From assembly GCA_019745005.1 (NCBI GenBank), contig JAIETO010000003.1:1-60925 (forward strand): a stretch of DNA of 60,925 nt, read 5' to 3'. Every line of letters starts with the position of its first letter. The first letter of the stretch is position 1. Source of the DNA: Burkholderiaceae bacterium. Lineage in GTDB: Bacteria > Pseudomonadota > Gammaproteobacteria > Burkholderiales > Burkholderiaceae_D. The position numbers and the translations under genes are program-made. A model generated the notes under the pieces. It did not search any database and was not told the origin of the DNA. It saw nothing but the letters and a program-made list of their open reading frames with translations. Below, piece after piece: positions 7,101 to 52,889 of this stretch.

Positions 7101-8414
7101 TCACTCTTTGCGAACCAGTAACCAATAACGGCCAATATCGGCAGACCCATCAGTGCCTTGCAAGGATTTAAAAATCTCAGTCGCCTTCGCACGATTTCCA
7201 CCCTGCAAATACGCCATACCCAAATGCAACTTGGCCTCATCGACAGACTTTAAGCCGCCCCTAGCAATACCTTGCTCCATCAGAGCGATACCACGTTCAA
7301 CTTGGCCGTTAATTACAAAGTTGTAGCCCGTATTTACCAATCCAATTCCATTTTTCGCTGCTTTTGCCGAAGCTTCACCCGCATCTAAAGATTTCAAATC
7401 ATCGGCCGCTTGTTTGTTGACCTTGTCACGCAAAATTTTGTGTTTGGCAGCGTCTTTACCCGTGCCCAACATATTGGCAGCGTAACCCGCATCAACCACT
7501 TTTTTGGCTTCGGTAGGCAAGCCCGCTAACAAAGCGAGGTCAGCAAATTCAGCGAATTGCGCTCCTTCTTCTAGAGTATCTGTCGCTAACAGAAGACGGT
7601 AATAATCAATACGCAACCGGTCTGAAAAGCCTGGCTTGTTGGGCAAGCGATAAATCAGATCAGCCCAAAATTCCTTTTTTGGATAATGCGTCACCATACG
7701 CTCTAAAACGCTGACGTAGCCCACCATATCTTTTTGCTTCAAGTAACTGCTGATTAGAAGATGCAATTTGTCATAGCTTGGAACCCGATTCGCCGCGTCA
7801 TCTGCTTGAATTTGCCGATTAACTTCCGCGATGGTGCCGGGGAAATCCTCTTGCAAATAAAAAATCCGTGCCAGCAAATTTTGCATCTGCGCATTGTCTG
7901 CATCTAATGCCAAATAACGCTTGGTCCATTCTTTCGATTTGTCGTAACGCTTCTCGTTAAAGTAGCTACCAGCAGCACCTTCGGTGAAGCGCAACACTTC
8001 CGCTTTTGACAGATAGCCGCTCTTGATCATCGCATCAAAAACGTTGGCTAACTCGTCGATGTTATTGGTTGCTGAGGCGACGATGGCAATCAAGCGATTG
8101 ATCTGAAATTGTTCGTAGTTGGTTTTTTTATCGAACGCATTAAGAATTTTTATTTTCTCTTGCGCTTCTGGATACTGTTTATTTGTGAGAAGCGTCTGCG
8201 TTTCGTTGAAGGTTTTTACCATCTCATTGCGTACGAATTCCTGTTTTTCTGTCGATGGTTTTTCGTTAGCTGGAACCTTGATTTCTTGACTTCTATTCGA
8301 GGGTGGTTCGGTCCCAGACGCTTGCGCGTTACCGAGCACGAAAGGGGCAGCACCAAGGGCAAACAATAAATGGGCAAGCAAGCTTGGGAAACGCGGCTGA
8401 GTTTTGTTTTTCAT
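7101..8414 (-). CDS. Secreted tetratricopeptide-repeat protein
   Basis: 437 residues. The N-terminal signal peptide (SLLAHLLFALGAAPFVLGNAQA) predicts export to the periplasm. The rest is helical and repeat-like, with TPR-type helices visible in YFNEKRYDKSKEWTKRYLALD, LLARIFYLQEDFPGTIAEV, and near the end AKLHLGMAYLQGGNRAKATEIFKSL. No enzyme motif is seen, so a scaffold or binding role is likely but unproven. It is divergent from the exosortase-like gene at 8808 with a 393-base gap, which may or may not be meaningful; TPR proteins do occur in exosortase/exopolysaccharide loci. Followed by a clear terminator. Base composition is more AT-rich than the core genes on either side. Confidence 0.75.
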   Translation of the reverse strand: MKNKTQPRFPSLLAHLLFALGAAPFVLGNAQASGTEPPSNRSQEIKVPANEKPSTEKQEFVRNEMVKTFNETQTLLTNKQYPEAQEKIKILNAFDKKTNYEQFQINRLIAIVASATNNIDELANVFDAMIKSGYLSKAEVLRFTEGAAGSYFNEKRYDKSKEWTKRYLALDADNAQMQNLLARIFYLQEDFPGTIAEVNRQIQADDAANRVPSYDKLHLLISSYLKQKDMVGYVSVLERMVTHYPKKEFWADLIYRLPNKPGFSDRLRIDYYRLLLATDTLEEGAQFAEFADLALLAGLPTEAKKVVDAGYAANMLGTGKDAAKHKILRDKVNKQAADDLKSLDAGEASAKAAKNGIGLVNTGYNFVINGQVERGIALMEQGIARGGLKSVDEAKLHLGMAYLQGGNRAKATEIFKSLQGTDGSADIGRYWLLVRKE

Positions 8415-8807: not shown

Positions 8808-10391
8808 ATGTCGCAAATCGTTACAAATGGAATGAAAAGAATGAACAACAATGAAGTAACGAGAGAAGATGAACTCATGTTTTCTTGGAAAGCGGTGTTC
8901 GTGCTTTGTATCTTTGTCGTACAGTTTCTTCTGTATGCGGAAACTGCACAGTCGATTGTTTTAACTTGGCAGAGCTCGCCAGCGTTTGCTGTGGGTTATG
9001 TCATTGCACCTATTTCCGCGTTGCTAATCTGGCAGCGTCGGGATATTTTTAGATCAATTCAGATTAGGCCATTTTGGCCAGCGTCACCAATTTTGATCAT
9101 ATTGGGCTTCGCGTGGCTGTTGGCTGACTTCGCTAAAGTTCAGGCGATTCAACAATGCATTTTTGTCGGTTTTGTTCCAATCTTTTTATTGCTTTTTTGG
9201 GGTAGACGTTTGACTTGGGAAATGGTGTTTCCGTTATCGTTTTTGTTATTTGCTATTCCTTTTGGGGCGATCTTGACATCTCCACTTATTGAATTTGCCG
9301 CAAATTTAACTTTTGCCGCGCTTCAGTCATGGGGTCTAACTGTAGCGCGAAATGGGTCTTATATTAGTGTTCCAACAGGCAGCCTCCCACTCGCCGAGAC
9401 ATTCGCCGATCTAAGCTATGTGTTTTTTTTCATACCCCTTTGCACCCTTTTTGCGTATCTGATGTATCAATCCAACTTGAAACGCATGCTATTCATTTTT
9501 ACGTCGATTTTTGCGCTTGTACTTGCACTTATTCTTGGTGTGCTGATTAATATTTTTACTCCTGATGTAAACACGTCTCGGGGAAGCATCGGATCGATTA
9601 GGGCGCTTTCTGGTTGTTTGTTTGTAGGTTTTATGATTTTGCTGATTTTTTGGCTTGGTGGCTTTAAGCGCGACACTAGTTCAGCAAATGCGAGATTGCT
9701 TAGATCCAGCGACGTAGAGACAATCAAGCCAGTAAGTACAAAATCACTATTTGCGGTGTTATTTTTCGCAGTCTTTATCCTAGCGATTTGGCCGATTTAT
9801 TCTACTTACGTGGCGTCTATAGATGATAAGAAATCGACTGTAGCACTTGCTGCATTACACGTAACTTGGTTGCCTACAAATGAGTCGATCAAGTGGAGGC
9901 CAGCCTATCATCACGCGCATTCAACTTTTGATGAGGCGTACCAGCGCGATTGGTATCGTGTCGGTTTGTCGATTCGCTACTATAAAAATCAAACCAAGGA
10001 CGCTCACTTAGTCAGTTCAGCAAATGGTTTGACCCCTGAAAAAGATGGTGGCTGGCGTCTGCTTGGGAGCGCGATTCGGGGTGAGGGTTCTGATGCGGGT
10101 TTTCTAAGGCTGATCGAGACTCGTGTGCAAGATAAGGCTGGACAGAATTTTTTGGTTTGGCAAACTTATTGGGTCGACCAAACGCTGACTGTAAGCCCTC
10201 TCTTCGCTCAATTGTTGCAAGCGCGGTCAAAGCTATTTCTTAAAGGTGATGATGGCGCTGCAATTTTTATTTATGCGCGTTTTGTTGAAAATCCAGAGGA
10301 GGCTCGAATTTCAATGCGCCCCTTTTTAAAATCCAACATGCAGCAAATTAGCGATGAATTAGCGGGATTTAAGTCTGGCACCTCCAAATAA
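8808..10391 (+). CDS. Degenerate exosortase A / EpsI-domain fusion membrane protein
   Basis: 527 residues: about eight membrane helices (residues 28-285), one more at 312-333, then a soluble domain (345-520). Topology, length and local motifs match exosortase XrtA-EpsI fusions: GSLPLAETFADLSYV aligns with the exosortase AEACSGLRYL region, and MILLIFWLGGF with the family's last helix. The tail WLPTNESIKWRPAY ... SIRYYKNQTKDAHLVSSANGL is the EpsI (DUF3485) pattern. The key residues are missing. The catalytic Cys position is F199, the Arg of GLR is S203, the NGLR motif reads LILG (241-244), and the DHxxYGW His region reads SIRALSGC, with R265 at the His position. Peptidase/transferase activity is therefore unlikely. 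No PEP-CTERM protein is nearby. The start is uncertain: ATG at 8808, 8832 or 8841. AT-rich codon use suggests relaxed selection or transfer. Confidence 0.7.
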   Translation: MSQIVTNGMKRMNNNEVTREDELMFSWKAVFVLCIFVVQFLLYAETAQSIVLTWQSSPAFAVGYVIAPISALLIWQRRDIFRSIQIRPFWPASPILIILGFAWLLADFAKVQAIQQCIFVGFVPIFLLLFWGRRLTWEMVFPLSFLLFAIPFGAILTSPLIEFAANLTFAALQSWGLTVARNGSYISVPTGSLPLAETFADLSYVFFFIPLCTLFAYLMYQSNLKRMLFIFTSIFALVLALILGVLINIFTPDVNTSRGSIGSIRALSGCLFVGFMILLIFWLGGFKRDTSSANARLLRSSDVETIKPVSTKSLFAVLFFAVFILAIWPIYSTYVASIDDKKSTVALAALHVTWLPTNESIKWRPAYHHAHSTFDEAYQRDWYRVGLSIRYYKNQTKDAHLVSSANGLTPEKDGGWRLLGSAIRGEGSDAGFLRLIETRVQDKAGQNFLVWQTYWVDQTLTVSPLFAQLLQARSKLFLKGDDGAAIFIYARFVENPEEARISMRPFLKSNMQQISDELAGFKSGTSK

Positions 10392-10578
10392 GCCCAGCAA
10401 TTTCACTGATAGCGAATTAGTTTTCTAAAGAGGAACTAACTCAGGATTAGACTGCGTTCTTTTTACATATGTTATCCGTATCAAAAGAAAAAACCAATAG
10501 CATTGTTTCTTCTTTTACCTGTTTAAAAAAATCTTTTTTTCGATATGGGTGTACGCGAAGATTTTTGAATTAATGTAA

Positions 10579-10723
10579 GGAAACCCTGATCAAGTTACTG
10601 CGCTGCCAAATTTCGAATCTGCGGCACCCGTAACGGTGCCCGCTACGGTGCTCGTTGTACAGTCGTACAGGTCCGCTTCTCGATCCAAACTTTGACCGCT
10701 TGCTACACTTAATCAGAGCTTCC
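10579..10723. mobile_element. 145-bp palindromic element, copy 2
   Basis: Diverged relative of the 133-bp element. It starts GGAAACCCTGATCAAGT and ends with the partly complementary TTAATCAGAGCTTCC. Internal blocks GTACAGTCGTACAGGT and CCGCTTCTCGATCCAAA match copies 1 and 3. It overlaps the last 11 bases of the yigZ-family gene and supplies its stop codon. The rest of the gap from 10392 to 10578 shows nothing recognisable. Confidence 0.72.
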
Positions 10724-11303
10724 TTAAGCCTTTGACCAACCTTCCTTTGAGCTGTTGTTTTAAGAGAGATTCAAACGCATCGACCATCGCAACCCGAAGA
10801 CGCAGGTCTAATTGAACCTGTTGTTGGTATTCAGCGCGTAACAAGACGACATTGTTCTGTTCGCATAGGCGACGCACCATTGCTTCGTCGGCGAAGGGGA
10901 CGAGGTAGCGCAGGTCGATGGTGTTTTCTATTTCGATGAGCGTAGCGACTTTGCAGGCTTCAGAAATCGCTTGGCCATAGGCGCGGCTTAGGCCACCGGC
11001 GCCTAATTTGATGCCGCCCCAATAGCGCACCACGACAGCTAAGACGTGATGGAGTTGCTTATGCGTGAGCACGTTGTACATGGGCTTGGCGGCAGTGCCT
11101 GAAGGTTCACCATCGTCATCAAGGCCAGAGTCGCCATCGCACAGCAAGACCCAGCAAACATGCACTGCATTGGGATGTTCGCGCCGAATTTGCTCTAAAG
11201 TCGTGCGTGCTTCGGCGCGGTTACTTACAGGATAAAGTTGGCCGAGAAAGCGACTTTTTTTAATCTCGATCTCGGCATTGGCCTTGGTGGCTAACTTAAA
11301 CAT
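10713..11303 (-). CDS. yigZ: YigZ / IMPACT-family protein
   Basis: 196 residues. The N-terminal UPF0029 domain carries the family signature KKSRFLGQLYPVSN and DDGEPSGTAAKPMYNVL, then VLAVVVRYWGGIKLGAGGLSRAYG. A small C-terminal ferredoxin-like domain follows. The family is related to eukaryotic IMPACT; no enzymatic reaction is firmly established. The final residues (KGLRKL) and the TGA come from the edge of a palindromic element, so the natural C-terminus may have been slightly altered. It lies 51 bases downstream of ettA on the same strand and could be cotranscribed. Confidence 0.88.
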   Translation of the reverse strand: MFKLATKANAEIEIKKSRFLGQLYPVSNRAEARTTLEQIRREHPNAVHVCWVLLCDGDSGLDDDGEPSGTAAKPMYNVLTHKQLHHVLAVVVRYWGGIKLGAGGLSRAYGQAISEACKVATLIEIENTIDLRYLVPFADEAMVRRLCEQNNVVLLRAEYQQQVQLDLRLRVAMVDAFESLLKQQLKGRLVKGLRKL

Positions 11304-11354: not shown

Positions 11355-13022
11355 TTAAGTGGTTAAGGGCTTATAGCGAATACGCTTGGGCTTTGCCCCT
11401 TCTTCACCTAAGCGTTTTTTCTTGTCGGCTTCGTATTCTTGGTAGTTGCCATCAAAGAAGCTAACTTGTGAGTTTCCTTCAAAGGCCAAAATATGCGTGG
11501 CGATACGATCTAAGAACCAGCGATCATGCGAAATCACCATGACGCTGCCAGCAAATTCCAATAGCGCGTCTTCTAGCGCGCGCAAGGTTTCTACGTCGAG
11601 ATCGTTTGATGGTTCATCGAGTAACAGCACGTTGCCGCCTTGTAGCAGAGTTTTTGCCAAATGCAAACGACCGCGTTCACCGCCCGATAAATTGCCCACG
11701 ATTTTTTGTTGATCGCCGCCTTTGAAATTGAAGCGACCAAGATAGGCGCGCGATGGCATTTCGAAGCGACCTACTGTCAAAATATCTGCACCATTTGCCA
11801 CGTCTTCAAACACCGTTTTGGTATTGCCCAAATCTTCACGCGATTGGTCAACCAAAGAAATTTTTGCCGTTTGACCTAACACCACTTCGCCGCTATCGGG
11901 TTGTTCCAAGCCTTTGATCATTTTGAACAGGGTGGATTTACCAGCGCCGTTCGGGCCGATGATGCCGACGATGGCGCCGGGTGGAATTTTGAAACTGAGG
12001 TTGTCGATTAATAAGCGATCACCAAACGCTTTCGAGACGTTTTTGAATTCGATGACTTCGTTCCCTAAGCGCTCGGCAACGGGAATAAAAATCTCCTGCG
12101 TCTCGTTACGCTTTTGGTATTCGTGTTCGCTCATTTCGTTGAAGCGGGCTAAACGCGCCTTGCTCTTTGCTTGGCGCGCTTTTGGGTTTTGCCGTGACCA
12201 TTCTAATTCTTTCTGTAGCGCTTTTTGGCGCGCAGATTCAGTCGCTTCTTCTTGCTTTAAGCGCGCTTGCTTTTGATCTAACCACGAACTGTAATTGCCC
12301 TTCCAAGGAATGCCGTGGCCGCGATCCAGTTCCAAAATCCATTCAGCAGCGTTGTCCAAGAAATAGCGGTCATGGGTAATCGCCACCACGGTGCCGGGGA
12401 AACGCAACAAAAACTGTTCTAACCAGTCTACAGATTCGGCATCCAAATGGTTGGTGGGCTCGTCTAACAAAAGCATGTCGGGTTTTGATAACAGCAAACG
12501 GCACAGAGCCACGCGGCGTTTTTCGCCACCCGACAAAACACCAATCTTCGCGTCCCACGGCGGCAAGCGTAAAGCGTCTGCCGCCATTTCTAGTTGCAGC
12601 TCAACGTTGTCACCTGAGGAAGCAGAGATGATGGCTTCTAAGCGTGCTTGTTCGTTCGCTAGCGCGTCAAAATCCGCATCTTCCTCTGCATACGCGGCGT
12701 ACACCAATTCGAGTTTTGCTTTGGCCTCAAACACTTCGCCTAACGCACCTTCTACCGCCTGCCGCACCGTTTGTTCGGGGTCAAGTTGCGGCTCCTGCGG
12801 TAAGTAACCGATGTTCAAATTCGGCATTGGTACGGCTTCGCCCTGAATATCCTTGTCAATCCCCGCCATGATCTTGAGTAGAGAAGATTTACCAGAGCCA
12901 TTTAAACCCAGCACGCCAATTTTTGCGCCAGGAAAAAATGAGAGAGAGATGTCTTTGAGAATTTGACGCTTGGGCGGAACAATCTTGCCAACGCGGTTCA
13001 TGGTGTAGACGTAATTTGCCAT
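11355..13022 (-). CDS. ettA: Energy-dependent translational throttle protein EttA (ABC-F)
   Basis: 555 residues, the family's length. It is a soluble ABC-F ATPase that binds the ribosomal E site and gates entry into elongation according to ATP/ADP ratio. It has two ABC cassettes: Walker A GLNGSGKSSLLK with signature LSGGEKRRVALCRLLL, and Walker A GPNGAGKSTLFK with signature LSGGERGRLHLAKTLL. Walker B is LLLDEPTNHLDAE and LLLDEPSNDLDVE. Between them is the basic P-site tRNA interaction motif linker (SRQNPKARQAKSKARLARF). The start MANYVYTMNRVGKIVPPK is that of EttA rather than Uup or YheS. No membrane segments. Confidence 0.96.
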   Translation of the reverse strand: MANYVYTMNRVGKIVPPKRQILKDISLSFFPGAKIGVLGLNGSGKSSLLKIMAGIDKDIQGEAVPMPNLNIGYLPQEPQLDPEQTVRQAVEGALGEVFEAKAKLELVYAAYAEEDADFDALANEQARLEAIISASSGDNVELQLEMAADALRLPPWDAKIGVLSGGEKRRVALCRLLLSKPDMLLLDEPTNHLDAESVDWLEQFLLRFPGTVVAITHDRYFLDNAAEWILELDRGHGIPWKGNYSSWLDQKQARLKQEEATESARQKALQKELEWSRQNPKARQAKSKARLARFNEMSEHEYQKRNETQEIFIPVAERLGNEVIEFKNVSKAFGDRLLIDNLSFKIPPGAIVGIIGPNGAGKSTLFKMIKGLEQPDSGEVVLGQTAKISLVDQSREDLGNTKTVFEDVANGADILTVGRFEMPSRAYLGRFNFKGGDQQKIVGNLSGGERGRLHLAKTLLQGGNVLLLDEPSNDLDVETLRALEDALLEFAGSVMVISHDRWFLDRIATHILAFEGNSQVSFFDGNYQEYEADKKKRLGEEGAKPKRIRYKPLTT

Positions 13023-14267: not shown

Positions 14268-14774
14268 CTAGTTCGTGTCGGTGATGGCTAAGCGATCAAT
14301 CTTGCCGCCCTTGTTGTAGCTCATGGCAAGCATCATGACTCCCCCATCAAACTTCAAGCGATAACGATAATGCCGGTCTTCGCCATCAACCGCGCGTGCC
14401 AGCAATTGCAGTTGTTTTAGCGAACCCAGCCTTTGCATGGCGGTGCGCATTTGTTGCAGTGCCGTTGGCAAAACAGCGGCCTGTGCTTTTGCAGTAAAAG
14501 CGTCGGGTGATATGCGGTTGTCGATAATGTTTTGCACCAGCAAGCGAATGTCTTCCGTAACCTTGGGCTCGTTGTCGGGTATGCCGGCAATGTCAGGCGT
14601 TGCCGTGGCGTTTGGTGACGCCGCTGTTTGCGATTCGGTAGCGCTAAGCATGTTGCTCGATTCAGCGCTTACGCTGCAGCCACTACAGTTGAACGCCAGC
14701 GCAAGTAGCGCGCTCATCGTACAAATCTTACTTTGCCTTGTGCGCGAGATTGACTTCATCGGATTCTTACTCAT
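14268..14774 (-). CDS. Small exported protein of unknown function, third gene of the phosphoesterase-kinase operon
   Basis: 168 residues from the ATG at 14774, chosen because it overlaps the kinase stop as ATGA; an upstream in-frame ATG at 14807 would overlap the kinase by 37 bases. The N-terminus has a hydrophobic stretch (KICTMSALLALAFNCSGCSVSAESS) that is a signal peptide. A lipidated Cys is possible but the lipobox (CSGC) is poor. After a Ser/Thr/Ala/Pro linker, residues 60-168 form a small alpha-beta domain (ISPDAFTAKAQAAVLPTALQQMRTAMQRLG ... YRYRLKFDGGVMMLAMSYNKGGKIDRLAI). This resembles small periplasmic ligand-binding domains of the NTF2-like kind seen beside hydrolases. Function not recognised. 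Confidence 0.75.
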   Translation of the reverse strand: MSKNPMKSISRTRQSKICTMSALLALAFNCSGCSVSAESSNMLSATESQTAASPNATATPDIAGIPDNEPKVTEDIRLLVQNIIDNRISPDAFTAKAQAAVLPTALQQMRTAMQRLGSLKQLQLLARAVDGEDRHYRYRLKFDGGVMMLAMSYNKGGKIDRLAITDTN

Positions 14775-16285
14775 GTTGTACTCGCTTTGACCACCGTGAC
14801 AGTGCATTCAGCCAGCGCAACCACTTGGGCAGAAACGCTGCCAAGGTAACGGCGGATTGATGAACTACCGCGTGAGCCGATCACAATATGATCCACACCA
14901 TTCTTATGCGCGAAATCAATCACTGCGCTTGCGGCGTCATTCGCTTCAAGCACATGGAAACTGATTTTTTCGCCTTTGATTTGCAAAGGACGCGCCCAAT
15001 GTTTTAGTTCGACTAATTGTTTGACGTGAATATTTTGTCCGTCTCGCAGCAAGCTTTCATCCATGCCAAAGCGACTGGTTTTGCGCACGGTGATGCAAGC
15101 GAGGCGCGCACCCGGTTCGGTAAATAAAAGCCGCCTGACTTCTTGCCGCAATTGTTCCGTTAAAGTCGCGCTGCTATTACTCAGGTCGAGCGCAGCAACG
15201 ATTATAGGTGCGCGGGATAACTGTTCGGCGACCGATTGTTGCGCGAACGGTTCCGCACCAGCCGCTTGAAAGCGCCGCTTCAGTACCGCCATCGCACCGT
15301 CCTGTTCGGTTTTTGATGCACGTTCGGTCAAGCTGATTTGGCTCGGGTCCTGCAAGGCAAAAGCAAGTTGCGCGGCAGATTCAAAACGCGCAGCGGGGTC
15401 GACTTCCAAGCAACGCAGAATCACTTCCTGTAGCCAAGGTGGAATTGCCGCATTGTGCTTGCGCGGCGGAATCGGGTCGCGATACAAACGCTTGCGCAAG
15501 CCCGCCACGCCGCTGGGGTTGCCGAAAGGTCGTTCGCCCGTTGCAAGGTGGTAGAGCAACACGCCAAGGGCGAATTGATCGCTATGGGGTTCGTTGCGCA
15601 CGCCCAAGACTTGCTCGGGCGAGATGTAGGGACCGGTGCCCAAAGGCAGACGAAATTCTTCCGCCAGCAAGTCCGGTAACTTGTCGTGGCGCGAAAGTCC
15701 AAAATCAATCAATACCGCATCGCCGTTTGGGCGAAACATAATATTGCTGGGTTTGAGATCTAAGTGAATCACATGCTGCCGATGCAAATCTTGTAGGGCT
15801 TGCGCCACCTTAATGCCGATTTGCACCACTTCCTCAATCGGCAGCGGTGCTGCGTCAAAACGGGTGCGCAACGACGTGCCAGCAATTTGTTCCATCACGA
15901 TGTAAGGCTGCGCCTCAAAGTCGCCAGAGGCGATGTACTGGGGCACGTGTTGGCCTTTGAGCTTGGGCATGATCATTTGCTCAACCTCAAACGCCACAAT
16001 CGCCGTTGGGTCATCGCTAGTAAACAGCAAGGGCACTTTCATGATCAAGGGCAAGAGCGTGCTTGAGGGTTTTTCCGCATTCTGGGTTTTCTGCGGGCGT
16101 TGACGCAAATCTGTCACGCGCCACAAGGCTGCCATACCGCCCACATGCAGTTTTTCTTCTAAGCGATAACCGTCAAACTCCATGCCGATTTTTAAGCGTT
16201 GATGACCCTCTGGCGTGGCTGATGTCGCTGCCGCATCTAAGCGCGCATCGTTTGGTGTTGAATTGGGGGCGTCGCTGTCTTGCAT
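14771..16285 (-). CDS. Serine/threonine protein kinase fused to a universal stress protein domain
   Basis: 504 residues from the ATG at 16285, one base after the upstream gene's stop and behind GGTGA; an alternative ATG at 16312 adds nine residues. The Hanks-type kinase domain covers about 30-310: ATP lysine in LIMKVPLLF, catalytic loop HVIHLDLKPSNIMF, DFG in LIDFGLSRH, and activation/P+1 region GTGPYISPEQVLG. The loop reads HLD, not HRD, so it is a non-RD kinase, usually not dependent on activation-loop phosphorylation. No membrane helix, unlike many bacterial Hanks kinases. Residues about 355-504 are a UspA fold ending in the nucleotide motif GSRGSSSIRRYLGSVSAQVV. It is cotranscribed with a phosphoesterase upstream and an exported protein downstream. 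Targets unknown. Confidence 0.85.
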   Translation of the reverse strand: MQDSDAPNSTPNDARLDAAATSATPEGHQRLKIGMEFDGYRLEEKLHVGGMAALWRVTDLRQRPQKTQNAEKPSSTLLPLIMKVPLLFTSDDPTAIVAFEVEQMIMPKLKGQHVPQYIASGDFEAQPYIVMEQIAGTSLRTRFDAAPLPIEEVVQIGIKVAQALQDLHRQHVIHLDLKPSNIMFRPNGDAVLIDFGLSRHDKLPDLLAEEFRLPLGTGPYISPEQVLGVRNEPHSDQFALGVLLYHLATGERPFGNPSGVAGLRKRLYRDPIPPRKHNAAIPPWLQEVILRCLEVDPAARFESAAQLAFALQDPSQISLTERASKTEQDGAMAVLKRRFQAAGAEPFAQQSVAEQLSRAPIIVAALDLSNSSATLTEQLRQEVRRLLFTEPGARLACITVRKTSRFGMDESLLRDGQNIHVKQLVELKHWARPLQIKGEKISFHVLEANDAASAVIDFAHKNGVDHIVIGSRGSSSIRRYLGSVSAQVVALAECTVTVVKASTT

Positions 16286-16286
16286 C

Positions 16287-17030
16287 TTATTCACCGGCGA
16301 GTAAGCGTTCACCTAAAACGGCAGGCAGACCCGCCGCGATAATTTTGTTGGCCGCCGCCTCCGCGTCATACGGCACACGATGAAAGCTCAGCTCAGCCGC
16401 CTCGCTGTCGTACACAGCATAACAAGCGGCTGGGTTGCCATCACGGGGTTGCCCTACCGAGCCAGGAATCGCTAGCCAGCGGCGCTGTTTGCTCAAAGGA
16501 ATACTGGTGTCTGCGCTGGGCGTAAAGCTGCCAGTTTTGCCGGTAAGGGTCATGTGATACAGGCTAGGCATGTGGACATGGCCGCAAAACGTTACACGCG
16601 CTTTGCTGGCATGGAAGCTACGCATCGCTTCCATGACGCCGTCAATGTATTCCCAACTTTCAGGCGCCCAAGCATTCGCGTGCACTAAGAGTACATCATC
16701 TAACTCGATGGTAAATGGTAGCGCCCGTATATAAGCCAGATGTTTCTCATCCAACTGCGCCAACGTCCACATCACGACTTTGTAGGCCACATGATTCATG
16801 CCTTGCTTGTCGTCCAGCAATAGTGCCTGATCATGATTGCCGATCAGCACGTAAGCGCCCCGTTCGGCATACGCCATGACGGTATCCATCACCCATACAG
16901 GGTCAGCGCCATAACCCACCAAGTCACCGAGAAATGCGTAGTCAGTTACGTGTTGCGATTCGGCATGTTCCAAGCAAGCGGTGAGGGCTTCGCGGTTCGC
17001 ATGCAGGTCAGTTAGTAGGGCGAGGCGCAT
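16287..17030 (-). CDS. Calcineurin-like metallophosphoesterase
   Basis: 247 residues with the complete metallophosphoesterase motif set: LLTDLHANREAL (DxH), FLGDLVGYGADP (GDxxG), LIGNHDQAL (GNHD), VHANAWAPESW (His), and FCGHVHMPSLY (GHxH). Two divalent metals would be bound. Cytoplasmic, no signal. The family includes phosphoprotein phosphatases and nucleotide phosphodiesterases, and the sequence does not distinguish these. Being translationally adjacent to the kinase-Usp gene (stop one base before its ATG), it may reverse the kinase's action; this is inference. Confidence 0.87.
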   Translation of the reverse strand: MRLALLTDLHANREALTACLEHAESQHVTDYAFLGDLVGYGADPVWVMDTVMAYAERGAYVLIGNHDQALLLDDKQGMNHVAYKVVMWTLAQLDEKHLAYIRALPFTIELDDVLLVHANAWAPESWEYIDGVMEAMRSFHASKARVTFCGHVHMPSLYHMTLTGKTGSFTPSADTSIPLSKQRRWLAIPGSVGQPRDGNPAACYAVYDSEAAELSFHRVPYDAEAAANKIIAAGLPAVLGERLLAGE

Positions 17031-19918: not shown

Positions 19919-20707
19919 CTATTCACGTGGGCTAGCAAGGGTTTTGATCGCGCTAAGCGTTTGCTCCACGTGCCCACCGTCAGCATCGGTAAAGCTGATT
20001 TTGGCTGGATACCATTCCAGGTTTGGCGCGAGCCAAATGTCGATTTGCTGTTCCTTGTTGGCGCTCGCTTGCACCTTCGTAAGATGGACGGCGTTGATTG
20101 CGCCCATTGGGCTTTGTAAGACTTCCATGCCGACGACGTTCAGCGTCCAAAGGTCAATATCGCGCCTTCCAACAACCCAAATCTGATGTGTTTGCCCCGC
20201 AGCAAACTGCTCATTTCTTTGCCGCGCGAGCCAGCATAATTGCCAAACAATACTGGTACGGTCTTGTTCGTTGCCCTTTAATTTCACGCTGCTGGCCGCG
20301 TCGCTAAATTGCACTTGGCCGCTAATGCGATCTAAAACACCATTGCTCTCTGGTTTATTGAGGCGTTTTTCAGAAAATTTCTCTGGCGCTAATCCTTGGT
20401 CGTTAAGCGCACCTTGGCTGCGCGCTTCGAGAATTTTCCCTAGCAAGATGACGCGCGTTTCCGAATGAATTTGGTAATGCACAGCGTCCGATTCGTCCTT
20501 GGTCAGCCACTTAACAATCGCCTCTCCGCTTAGGGGTATGCCATGTTGCACGGCTTTGATTTGATAATGGAGTTCGGCATTCGGCGGCAAATTACTTGCG
20601 CAATAAGCCTTGGCTTGAGCGAGTGCGAGCAGCGTAATTCCTAGCGCTAACCGCACAGCGGCTTGGTGGGATTTGATGGTACTAAAAATGGCGATAATAT
20701 TTTTCAT
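19919..20707 (-). CDS. DUF3108 domain exported protein (second of a pair)
   Basis: 262 residues: signal peptide (AAVRLALGITLLALAQAKAYCAS), then a beta-rich DUF3108 domain. Family-type features are ELHYQIKAVQHGIPLSGEAIVKW, FSEKRLNKPESNGVLDRISGQVQF, QDRTSIVWQLCWLARQR, the DLWTLNVVGMEVLQSPMGAINAVHL segment and the close IDIWLAPNLEWYPAKISFTDADGGHVEQTL. The fold is presumed periplasmic; the function is not established. It follows the other DUF3108 gene by 6 bases and shares its domain plan, so the pair probably arose by duplication and acts together. Confidence 0.85.
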   Translation of the reverse strand: MKNIIAIFSTIKSHQAAVRLALGITLLALAQAKAYCASNLPPNAELHYQIKAVQHGIPLSGEAIVKWLTKDESDAVHYQIHSETRVILLGKILEARSQGALNDQGLAPEKFSEKRLNKPESNGVLDRISGQVQFSDAASSVKLKGNEQDRTSIVWQLCWLARQRNEQFAAGQTHQIWVVGRRDIDLWTLNVVGMEVLQSPMGAINAVHLTKVQASANKEQQIDIWLAPNLEWYPAKISFTDADGGHVEQTLSAIKTLASPRE

Positions 20708-20713
20708 AATCTT

Positions 20714-21865
20714 CTAGTGCGTGATTTTGGTCACGGTTTGTGTCGTGATATTGCCATTGCGTTCAGTATTCGTTATTTGTACCGGGTACCAACCCAAGCT
20801 AGGTGCAAACCAGAGATCTAAGCGCGAATTGTAGGAGCCTGGACGAGGTGGACGGACAAGATGCCAAGTCTGTAGCGTGCCTAGCTTACTCTCGATCATC
20901 TCTTGGCCCACCACTACAAACAGAAACGGCAAAGCGTCGCGTTCTTCTGCCACTTGAATCAAAATCTCCCTACCTACGTAAAACTGCTTCTCGTCGGCAT
21001 TGCCGATGGCGGCTAGTTGCATGACGACGCTCGCTTTGTCTTGTGCTCCCGCTTCCATCGTAATTTTTTTGCTCGTGGCAGAAAAACTGATGAGCTTATC
21101 CTCATGTTGAAAATGGGTGGCCGTTTCAGCACGGCGCAAGCGCGCTTCCGTACTGGTTTCGGGCGCAATGCCGTTTTCTCCCAAGCGTCCAACGCTGCTG
21201 AGTTTGTATAAGTTGACACGAGCCAGCACGAAACTCACACTCGCCTCGATATTCAATTCGTATCGATCTTCACTATTTTTCCACGTCAAACTTGCTGCAC
21301 CGAGGCCTGTTCTGCCACTTTCTTCCTTGCGTGTGACGAGCATCTCCAAATGCGCCGATGCGAGCGGTTTGACGACCAATGTGGGCGCTGGCGCGGCGGC
21401 TTCTTTTGGTACTTCTGCTGACTCTTTTGGGGTCACTATGTTGATGCTAGCGGTTGCTGCAGTATCAGATTTCTCAGCGCCCTGTGCTGCTACCGTATTG
21501 AGTTGGTCAACTTTTTCTTCTAGTGGGGGCTGCTCATCTGGCGTGTTAAAGATATTGTTTGAGGTATGGACACTCGCCGAGCCTACGCTGCGCAGCGCTT
21601 GCCGCTCCGATTGAGGGAGGCGCTGCGGACGACTCTTCGCGGCTGGCACTCGCGCGCTAAATTGATCAGTTTGGCGCTGACTTTGATCTTCTTCCATGCT
21701 AATGGCAATGATTCGCTCCTGTTGTTCGTTGATAGCAACGGGGCGTGTAGGTAACTCGATGAATAGTAGGGCAAAAAAATGCAACAGAAGCGACGCAAAC
21801 ACAAAGCGAAAATATCGTTTTGTATTGATAAGTAGGGGCGGCAAGGTAGCTTGATTCAATGGCAT
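20714..21865 (-). CDS. DUF3108 domain protein with N-terminal membrane anchor (first of a pair)
   Basis: 383 residues from the ATG at 21865 (MPLNQATLPPLL); an ATG at 21901 would add twelve, and neither has a clear ribosome site. One membrane helix near the start (YFRFVFASLLLHFFALLFIEL) is followed by a low-complexity periplasmic linker rich in Ser, Glu, Ala and Pro, an arrangement like TonB. The C-terminal 210 residues are a DUF3108 domain (SLTWKNSEDRYELNIEASVSF ... DKASVVMQLAAIGN ... LDLWFAPSLGWYPVQITNTERNGNITTQTV). This aligns well with the product of the gene 6 bases downstream. An envelope role is likely; nothing more specific can be shown. Confidence 0.83.
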   Translation of the reverse strand: MPLNQATLPPLLINTKRYFRFVFASLLLHFFALLFIELPTRPVAINEQQERIIAISMEEDQSQRQTDQFSARVPAAKSRPQRLPQSERQALRSVGSASVHTSNNIFNTPDEQPPLEEKVDQLNTVAAQGAEKSDTAATASINIVTPKESAEVPKEAAAPAPTLVVKPLASAHLEMLVTRKEESGRTGLGAASLTWKNSEDRYELNIEASVSFVLARVNLYKLSSVGRLGENGIAPETSTEARLRRAETATHFQHEDKLISFSATSKKITMEAGAQDKASVVMQLAAIGNADEKQFYVGREILIQVAEERDALPFLFVVVGQEMIESKLGTLQTWHLVRPPRPGSYNSRLDLWFAPSLGWYPVQITNTERNGNITTQTVTKITH

Positions 21866-21901
21866 ATTGTTAGTGTAAACGGTCTCGCCAAATAGCTGCA
21901 T

Positions 21902-52649: not shown

Positions 52650-52889
52650 ATTCCATTTCTAAAGCTATCGTGTCGATGTTGCCTTCGCCTTGCCGTGCTG
52701 CAGCACTGCATGCGACTCGCCGTCTAGACACAATTGAAGAGACCTCTGCACAACTGTAGCGAGCGGTCGAAGTTCGGTTCGAGAAGCGCACCTGTACGAC
52801 TGTACAGCGAGCACGGTAGCCGGAGTCGCAGAACCGAAATTCGGGCGCGCAGTAAGTTGTGCAGAGGTCTCTTGAATTGGACATGGAAT
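52650..52889. repeat. Palindromic ATTTCTAAAG-type extragenic repeat, copy 3, split by an insertion
   Basis: Left part (52650 to about 52738) starts ATTCCATTTCTAAAGC and matches the 25337 copy closely. Right part (52872-52889) TTGAATTGGACATGGAAT supplies the other end. Between them sits the 133-bp palindromic element. Removing it and one TTGAA restores a continuous element. Confidence 0.82.
52739..52871. mobile_element. 133-bp palindromic element, copy 3, inserted in another repeat
   Basis: Ends GAGACCTCTGCACAACT and the complement AGTTGTGCAGAGGTCTC (perfect apart from the innermost base). The arms remain largely complementary for about 42 bases. TTGAA lies directly outside both ends (52734-52738 and 52872-52876), consistent with a 5-bp target duplication. 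Freshest copy in the window. No coding capacity. Confidence 0.85.

Follow-up and report, generated by a model that had tools for sequence, protein, structure and literature searches.

In this study, we describe a gene encoding an exosortase A (XrtA)-EpsI fusion that has lost its active site with an intact reading frame. It lies in a stretch of 60,925 nucleotides (the window) from a bacterium whose genus we infer to be Undibacterium. The protein is a homologue of an active enzyme with the catalytic residues lost in the alignment, i.e. a pseudoenzyme, and is called pseudo-exosortase here. We consider it probable that this dead exosortase has been kept as a membrane-tethered EpsI protein and is an in-place descendant of xrtA, after the surrounding gene island was lost or moved.

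The open reading frame comprises 527 codons without internal stops, so that the intact frame of the original prediction was borne out by the ORF check (Table 1). The product matched Exosortase_EpsH (PF09721) over residues 38–284 with 115.7 bits (Pfam cut-off 25.7) and DUF3485/EpsI (PF11984) over residues 321–515 with 78.6 bits (cut-off 26.1). The NCBIfam models for EpsI (TIGR02914; 81.1 bits, cut-off 42.8) and for the generic exosortase (TIGR02602; 120 bits, cut-off 105.55) were passed, and the XrtA model (TIGR03109) gave 160.6 bits, which is under its cut-off of 208. Judged by PF09721, TIGR02602 and the helical structure model, the multi-helix EpsH scaffold is present. Met24 may be the true start of the protein. 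A search for a sigma-54 box upstream of the gene found none, promoter and terminator scans gave no excess over shuffled sequences, and the window had no match in Rfam. The host assembly has a size of 3.84 Mb in 321 contigs and is 83.7% complete. Elsewhere in the window, the gene at 14771–16312 (−) encodes a fusion of a protein kinase domain with a universal stress protein domain, and two adjoining genes at 19919–21901 (−) each encode a DUF3108.

Table 1. Features of the window, with positions counted from its first nucleotide, and the evidence for each.
Feature	Position	Strand	Evidence
Pseudo-exosortase: XrtA-EpsI fusion, active site lost, frame intact	8808..10391	+	ORF, PF09721, PF11984, TIGR02602, TIGR02914
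Met24, alternative start codon	8877..8879	+	GAGAGAAG 8 bases upstream; canonical proteins start nearby (sequence, alignment)
Exosortase (EpsH) domain, residues 38–284	8919..9659	+	PF09721
Catalytic half, residues 193–288	9384..9671	+	Alignment with 115 relatives
Helix running into EpsI domain, residues 311–338	9738..9821	+	AlphaFold2 model
Soluble EpsI/DUF3485 domain, residues 339–527	9822..10388	+	Conservation like canonical XrtA; model pLDDT 91.9
Exported TPR protein; island border in G034, G041, G032	7101..8414	−	Pfam; gene order in relatives
Protein taken to be YigZ-like; other island border	10713..11303	−	Homology to relatives computed
Protein taken to be EttA-like ABC-F, adjoining YigZ	11355..13022	−	Homology to relatives computed
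Dispersed hairpin repeat, copy 1, left of TPR-pseudo-exosortase segment	6254..6383	+	
Dispersed hairpin repeat, copy 2, right of pseudo-exosortase	10577..10718	+	
Dispersed hairpin repeat, copy 3	52739–52873		

For the analysis of the active site, relatives were taken from scans of the genus, the family and the order and from 80 named loci. In total, 147 loci were examined and 144 of them had a match of more than 300 residues; L016, a fragment in which Cys and NGLR are intact, and the loci L017 and L018 gave no match and were left out, and 115 sequences were obtained after dereplication. The residues C199, S200, G201, R203, N241, R244, D264, and H265 were each present in 115 of 115 aligned relatives, and the pseudo-exosortase carries F199, A200, D201, S203, L241, G244, I264, and R265 at these positions. 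Also, H62 (115/115 relatives) is replaced by V and H253 (113/115) by D. The four replacements named in the original prediction, F199, S203, G244, and R265 for Cys, Arg, Arg, and His, are thus exact by alignment, and an alignment restoring Cys, Arg, and His was not seen, the protein differing from all 115 relatives. In contrast, the suggested check for a clade missing the same residues was negative, as the loss is common to none of the 115. The available excerpt of Haft et al. 2006 (PMC1569441) lists six family-wide invariant exosortase residues (C-x-G, N-x-x-R, H-x-x-x-G), of which the pseudo-exosortase retains one, the last Gly (G269).

Having lost the Cys nucleophile and both helper positions, the pseudo-exosortase would no longer be able to cleave PEP-CTERM proteins. 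The position of His265 in exosortases presumably corresponds to that of Arg253 in the archaeosortase ArtA. Mutagenesis of ArtA identified Cys173, Arg214, and Arg253 as critical, as summarized in the accessible part of a review (PMC9263693).

Three lines of evidence support the descent of the pseudo-exosortase from XrtA: the fusion architecture, trees joining it to the XrtA proteins of G034 and G039 (genomes of the genus are numbered with G), and its position in the xrtA interval of relatives. This favors the exosortase A origin proposed originally over an unrelated membrane protein. For the site-mixture tree, 40 of 116 rows were hand-picked from the family-level group and three column sets were used. 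The G034/G039 grouping was obtained in all three; SH-aLRT values were 95 when the catalytic half was excluded, 76 when it was included, and 91 for EpsI alone. FastTree with all 116 rows recovered this placement for EpsI only (0.96); without the catalytic half, it grouped the protein with 25 sequences from outside Undibacterium (0.82), and with the catalytic half beside two others (0.19) within a 22-row group containing Undibacterium. The terminal branch is long (1.57 vs. a median of 0.27). A forced grouping with all seven Undibacterium XrtAs was not rejected in two cases (p-AU 0.278 and 0.476) and was rejected for EpsI alone (0.035); in the site-mixture tree, Solimicrobium and Sapientia, other Oxalobacteraceae, fall among these seven sequences. 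In a tree of the TPR gene from 20 of 42 genomes, the host was nested (1.0) with the XrtA-bearing genomes G014, G031, G034, G035, and G039, with support of only 0.58 for its nearest neighbor inside this group.

Full-length identity of the pseudo-exosortase to five Undibacterium XrtA proteins is 32–37%. Scans of the family (392 genomes) and the order (399 genomes) yielded no match above 39% identity among the matches listed, and 30 loci from each were retrieved; these scans and that of the genus (43 genomes) overlap in their draws, and the residues were checked in the 115 aligned sequences only. Ten further exosortases were matched in the genus scan, and each has the Cys motif (the G031 sequence ends before the His). 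In an exact-peptide scan of genome contigs for orthologues sharing the loss, 37 stretches came up and none was confirmed; a profile scan yielded 280 confirmed stretches, and the 80 loci kept from these were all canonical. So far, the pseudo-exosortase is a singleton from one assembly among the sequences examined, and no clade of dead exosortases was found among the aligned relatives.

The genomic position was analyzed by comparison with the relatives. In the window, the pseudo-exosortase gene is alone in the 2.3 kb between the divergent TPR gene, starting at 8414, and the YigZ gene (−), ending at 10713. In G034, G041, and G032, the relatives that allowed its extent to be measured, the same interval is an island of 58–77 kb holding xrtA. 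In G034, a single contig carries TPR (−) at 0.3–1.6 kb, PrsK at 12.7 kb, xrtA (+) at 37.7 kb, YigZ (−) at 59.3 kb, and EttA (−) at 62.3 kb. In G041, the order is TPR (−, end at 22.7 kb), xrtA (−, 77.4 kb), and YigZ (−, 99.9 kb), and in G032 it is EttA (+, 182 kb), xrtA (+, 209.6 kb), and TPR (+, 254 kb), where YigZ was not met. In G014, G016, and G035, xrtA directly follows YigZ, and the TPR gene is about 300 kb off (G014), has no orthologue found (G016), or is located on another contig (G035); G031 and G039 have TPR and xrtA on separate contigs. The orientation of the pseudo-exosortase gene is that of xrtA in G034 and is inverted relative to G014, G016, and G035. Seven species without xrtA were also examined. 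Four are compact, with TPR, YigZ, and EttA within a few kb (G013, G017, G018) or with TPR and EttA (G024), and three have neither YigZ nor EttA near TPR (G006, G015, G036). The EttA-like protein showed 96–99% identity in the 10 relatives where it was met; two further matches with 29% and 21% identity are other ABC proteins.

From the gene order in relatives, it follows that the pseudo-exosortase occupies the xrtA place without its island; the exopolysaccharide gene neighborhood of XrtA is absent around it. The original description of a gene standing alone beside a divergent exported TPR protein holds for the neighbor, as recovered by Pfam, and for the sole gene between TPR and YigZ, but this isolation reflects the loss or relocation of an island.

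An intergenic repeat of about 140 bp is dispersed over the window in three copies and folds into a long hairpin (z −5.8 in copy 1). In 244 loci (2.44 Mb with overlaps, own loci included), it was found in none of the loci of other genomes. The two copies flanking the TPR-pseudo-exosortase segment might have served in the island loss.

In the 83.7%-complete host assembly, neither another PF09721 match or canonical exosortase nor TIGR03108 or PrsK was found, and PrsR and PrsT did not appear above cut-off. All eight XrtA-bearing relatives have exosortase, TIGR03108, PrsK, PrsR, and PrsT. PEP-CTERM proteins are present: seven matches at E ≤ 1 were obtained in the host genome, all on other contigs, in agreement with the original observation that the window has no PEP-CTERM gene. 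Five host matches were obtained at E ≤ 0.001, where no control genome was positive, and six above cut-off at E ≤ 1, a limit at which 2 of the 14 controls exceeded the cut-off as well. Six of the proteins were readable, five with textbook tails, and one was cut by a contig end. A genome-wide search for PEP-CTERM proteins and an active exosortase, as proposed originally, was thus positive for the former (six) and negative for the latter within the assembly. The sorting machinery was either lost recently or lies within the missing sixth of the genome.

Within the genus, PEP-CTERM matches at E ≤ 0.001 occurred in 12 of 42 genomes, namely the eight with XrtA, the host, G030, G036, and G023; the last (56% complete) has 10 matches together with PrsK and PrsR. 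G030 and G036 (96% and 100% complete) have 3 and 1 matches, respectively, without exosortase, PrsK, or TIGR03108, and the one PEP-CTERM gene tested in each carries a sigma-54-like box (10 and 11 of 13). Since these two genomes carry PEP-CTERM genes without the system, loss of the sorting machinery with PEP-CTERM leftovers is suggested to occur in the genus. In the host, four of the six PEP-CTERM genes have a −24/−12-like box of at least 10 of 13 (shuffle p 0.00–0.04); one of the remaining two has no box and one has too little upstream DNA. For comparison, 18 control genes were picked from 40 matches in G034, G014, and G016, of which G014 and G016 share orthologues; 15 of them scored at least 10, two at unlikely positions (−333 and −12). 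Sigma-54 control of a PEP-CTERM gene has been published for Aquincola, according to the part of the article available (PMC9850573). In G014 and G016, both single-contig genomes, PrsK is more than 200 kb away from xrtA. These two also have a second exosortase of another type with 319 aa (L018 in G014, L017 in G016), in which C-x-G, N-x-x-R, and H-x-x-x-G are intact; among the 43 genus genomes, this type is confined to them.

Change along the protein is uneven. Of the alignment columns with at least 95% conservation, the pseudo-exosortase kept 27/34 in the N-terminal half, 16/47 in the catalytic half, and 7/8 in EpsI. With at least 80% conservation, 43/59, 21/66, and 24/29 were kept (Fisher 6e-6 and 5e-6 for the N-terminal half and EpsI, each against the catalytic half), and with at least 99%, 16/22, 10/31, and 1/1, the last being a single column. 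Canonical proteins treated by leave-one-out at 95% kept mean fractions of 0.99 (N-terminal), 0.99 (catalytic), and 0.96 (EpsI), with minima of 0.79, 0.89, and 0.22; the N-terminal fraction of the pseudo-exosortase equals the lowest canonical value. For the catalytic half, mean identity to the seven canonical Undibacterium copies is 28%, against 85% among canonical pairs. The corresponding values are 47% and 71% for the N-terminal half and 34% and 45% for EpsI, where identity to the outgroup goes from 33 to 29%. The catalytic half, normally the slowest part by identity, is now the fastest-changing one, and the pace of EpsI is little altered. Hydrophobic columns were largely retained in all three regions (59/62, 42/49, and 35/38).

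A second comparison assumed the ancestral state to be known where five Undibacterium XrtA agree, and separated outgroup-conserved from less conserved sites. In EpsI, the kept/lost counts of the pseudo-exosortase were 12/1 at outgroup-conserved and 25/18 at other sites, close to those of the canonical controls Undibacterium Jales W-56 (12/1, 26/17) and U. terreum (13/0, 33/10). In the catalytic half, they were 19/36 and 3/17 vs. 55/0, 16/4 (Jales W-56) and 54/1, 16/4, and in the N-terminal half 28/9 and 28/24 vs. 37/0, 45/7 and 37/0, 42/10. By these counts, the N-terminal half is intermediate and appears to be relaxed, too. The contrast between conserved and variable sites inside single regions was weak (p 0.046, 0.15, 0.042); in the N-terminal half and EpsI pooled, conserved sites were retained more than variable ones (Fisher 0.004). 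Drawn from one sequence, the pattern fits long selection for a membrane-bound EpsI protein and would also be compatible with a recent release from selection. The EpsI-like domain keeps its pattern as originally noted, and the lean to function expressed there gains support from the uneven loss, the normal EpsI conservation, and the absence of stops.

The full AlphaFold2 model reached a pLDDT of 81 and a pTM of 0.79. If the very first residues are disregarded, confidence was lowest in loop 253–261, the expected last active-site loop. The EpsI domain modelled alone is given in Table 1. No solved structure matched the profile of the whole fusion at E ≤ 0.01, and none matched the full model or the EpsI-domain model at E ≤ 1e-3 in Foldseek. 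The best solved match of the EpsI domain, a weak one, consisted of several chains of SciW (6xrr; E 2.2e-3, probability 1.00, TM 0.36/0.44), an entry whose title describes the protein as bound to a transmembrane domain. We take SciW to be an Eag chaperone. The next matches were PsbP, a PA94 protein, Mog1, and LpqN, with START-domain proteins interspersed at worse E; SciW and these four presumably belong mostly to one fold group. The Eag-like match is a weak hint toward a binding role of EpsI: should this fold be correct, hydrophobic tails would be possible ligands of EpsI, and a protein combining a dead exosortase and a live EpsI could be a holder of PEP-CTERM proteins.

Taken together, we probably see the in-place descendant of an Undibacterium xrtA whose surrounding polysaccharide/PEP-CTERM island was lost, or moved off, in the host lineage. 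The ability to cleave PEP-CTERM proteins would have gone with the active site, and selection would persist mostly on the EpsI domain, as indicated by the substitution pattern. The remaining helices are predicted to hold EpsI in the membrane, given the kept hydrophobicity and the model. The role would be non-catalytic: the protein would bind PEP-CTERM proteins, perhaps by way of the hydrophobic tails, or else a polysaccharide partner, and leave them uncleaved. As a tentative and rather doubtful specification, the protein may act as a membrane-bound EpsI chaperone or anchor retaining uncleaved PEP-CTERM proteins in the inner membrane.

A point against the preferred reading is that the PEP-CTERM genes appear maintained, consistent with an active exosortase that is absent from the 83.7%-complete assembly. 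The pseudo-exosortase could then partner with or regulate this second XrtA, encoded on a relocated island, as a dead homologue tuning or scaffolding the live enzyme. The tails and sigma-54-like boxes of the host PEP-CTERM proteins speak for this, as does the distance between PrsK and xrtA in G014 and G016, by which parts of the system move. However, the assembly holds no canonical exosortase, TIGR03108, or PrsK and no PrsR or PrsT above cut-off, the pseudo-exosortase occupies the place of xrtA itself in relatives, and no dead/live pair was found in the other 42 genomes of the genus, as the second exosortase in G014 and in G016 is of the other type with intact motifs. We regard such a partnership as possible without being likely. 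The relic alternative, in which selection on xrtA ended with the loss of the island and the gene drifts with its frame open by chance, is improbable. It would agree with the five hallmark families not found in the host assembly, with the catalytic half as the most changed part and a relaxed N-terminal half, and with the leftovers persisting in G030 and G036. Unselected decay was simulated from the G034 gene (40 runs per level, substitutions only, one starting gene, no indels) and gave mean stop numbers (minimum) of 6.4 (2) at 80% identity, 10.7 (4) at 60%, and 16.6 (8) at 37%, compared with zero stops observed. Against drift also stand the unevenness of the loss across regions and the better retention of conserved sites in the pooled N-terminal half and EpsI, although a mixed history of long selection followed by recent release would slip past these decay tests.

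It is very improbable that the protein is enzymatically active through a relocated or different set of residues, e.g. D201, S203, D253, and R265. Polar residues do occupy several former active-site positions, and R265 stands in place of His; Arg253 is among the critical residues of ArtA in the review excerpt cited above (PMC9263693). But the Cys is now Phe, Arg244 is now Gly, loop 253–261 is of low model confidence, and the catalytic half appears degraded rather than rebuilt, as far as a single sequence can tell.

Compared with known systems, the pseudo-exosortase shares with XrtA (TIGR03109; PF09721 plus PF11984/TIGR02914) the full-length two-domain architecture, the N-terminal membrane scaffold, the EpsI domain, and the genomic site; it differs in its replaced catalytic residues and XrtA score under cut-off, in having no adjoining polysaccharide genes, and in the prs genes not found in the assembly. 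Inactive rhomboids such as the iRhoms are pseudoenzymes of membrane proteases in which the scaffold is kept, the catalytic residues are lost, and a binding role is likely; the pseudo-exosortase would be alike in these respects and differs in family and fold. Eag chaperones, which serve type VI secretion effectors, are cytosolic, whereas EpsI is predicted to be periplasmic, and apart from the weak structural match no sequence relation has been shown. In Methylobacillus sp. 12S, EpsI is a separate protein encoded downstream of epsH, as stated in the excerpt of Haft et al. 2006 (PMC1569441). The two share the EpsI domain, with family-typical conservation in the pseudo-exosortase, but that of Methylobacillus is a protein of its own beside a live exosortase and the one described here is carried on a dead exosortase. 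A catalytically dead exosortase was not found in the open-licence literature, as far as titles and abstract openings tell.

EpsI has accompanied exosortases since their first description and had 'no known function' as of 2006 according to the same excerpt (Haft et al. 2006, PMC1569441); titles and abstract openings of the open-licence literature yielded no paper on its function. In the gene described here, the protease half is lost and the EpsI half is evolving normally, a natural separation of the two, which suggests that EpsI is worth keeping alone. Thereby, the old question of EpsI function becomes approachable by simple complementation. The host further suggests that genes for PEP-CTERM proteins, with their promoters, can be retained in genomes in which no sorting machinery is found. 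If the pseudo-exosortase were indeed a holder of PEP-CTERM proteins, EpsI would be the substrate-binding part of exosortase systems, workable without the protease.
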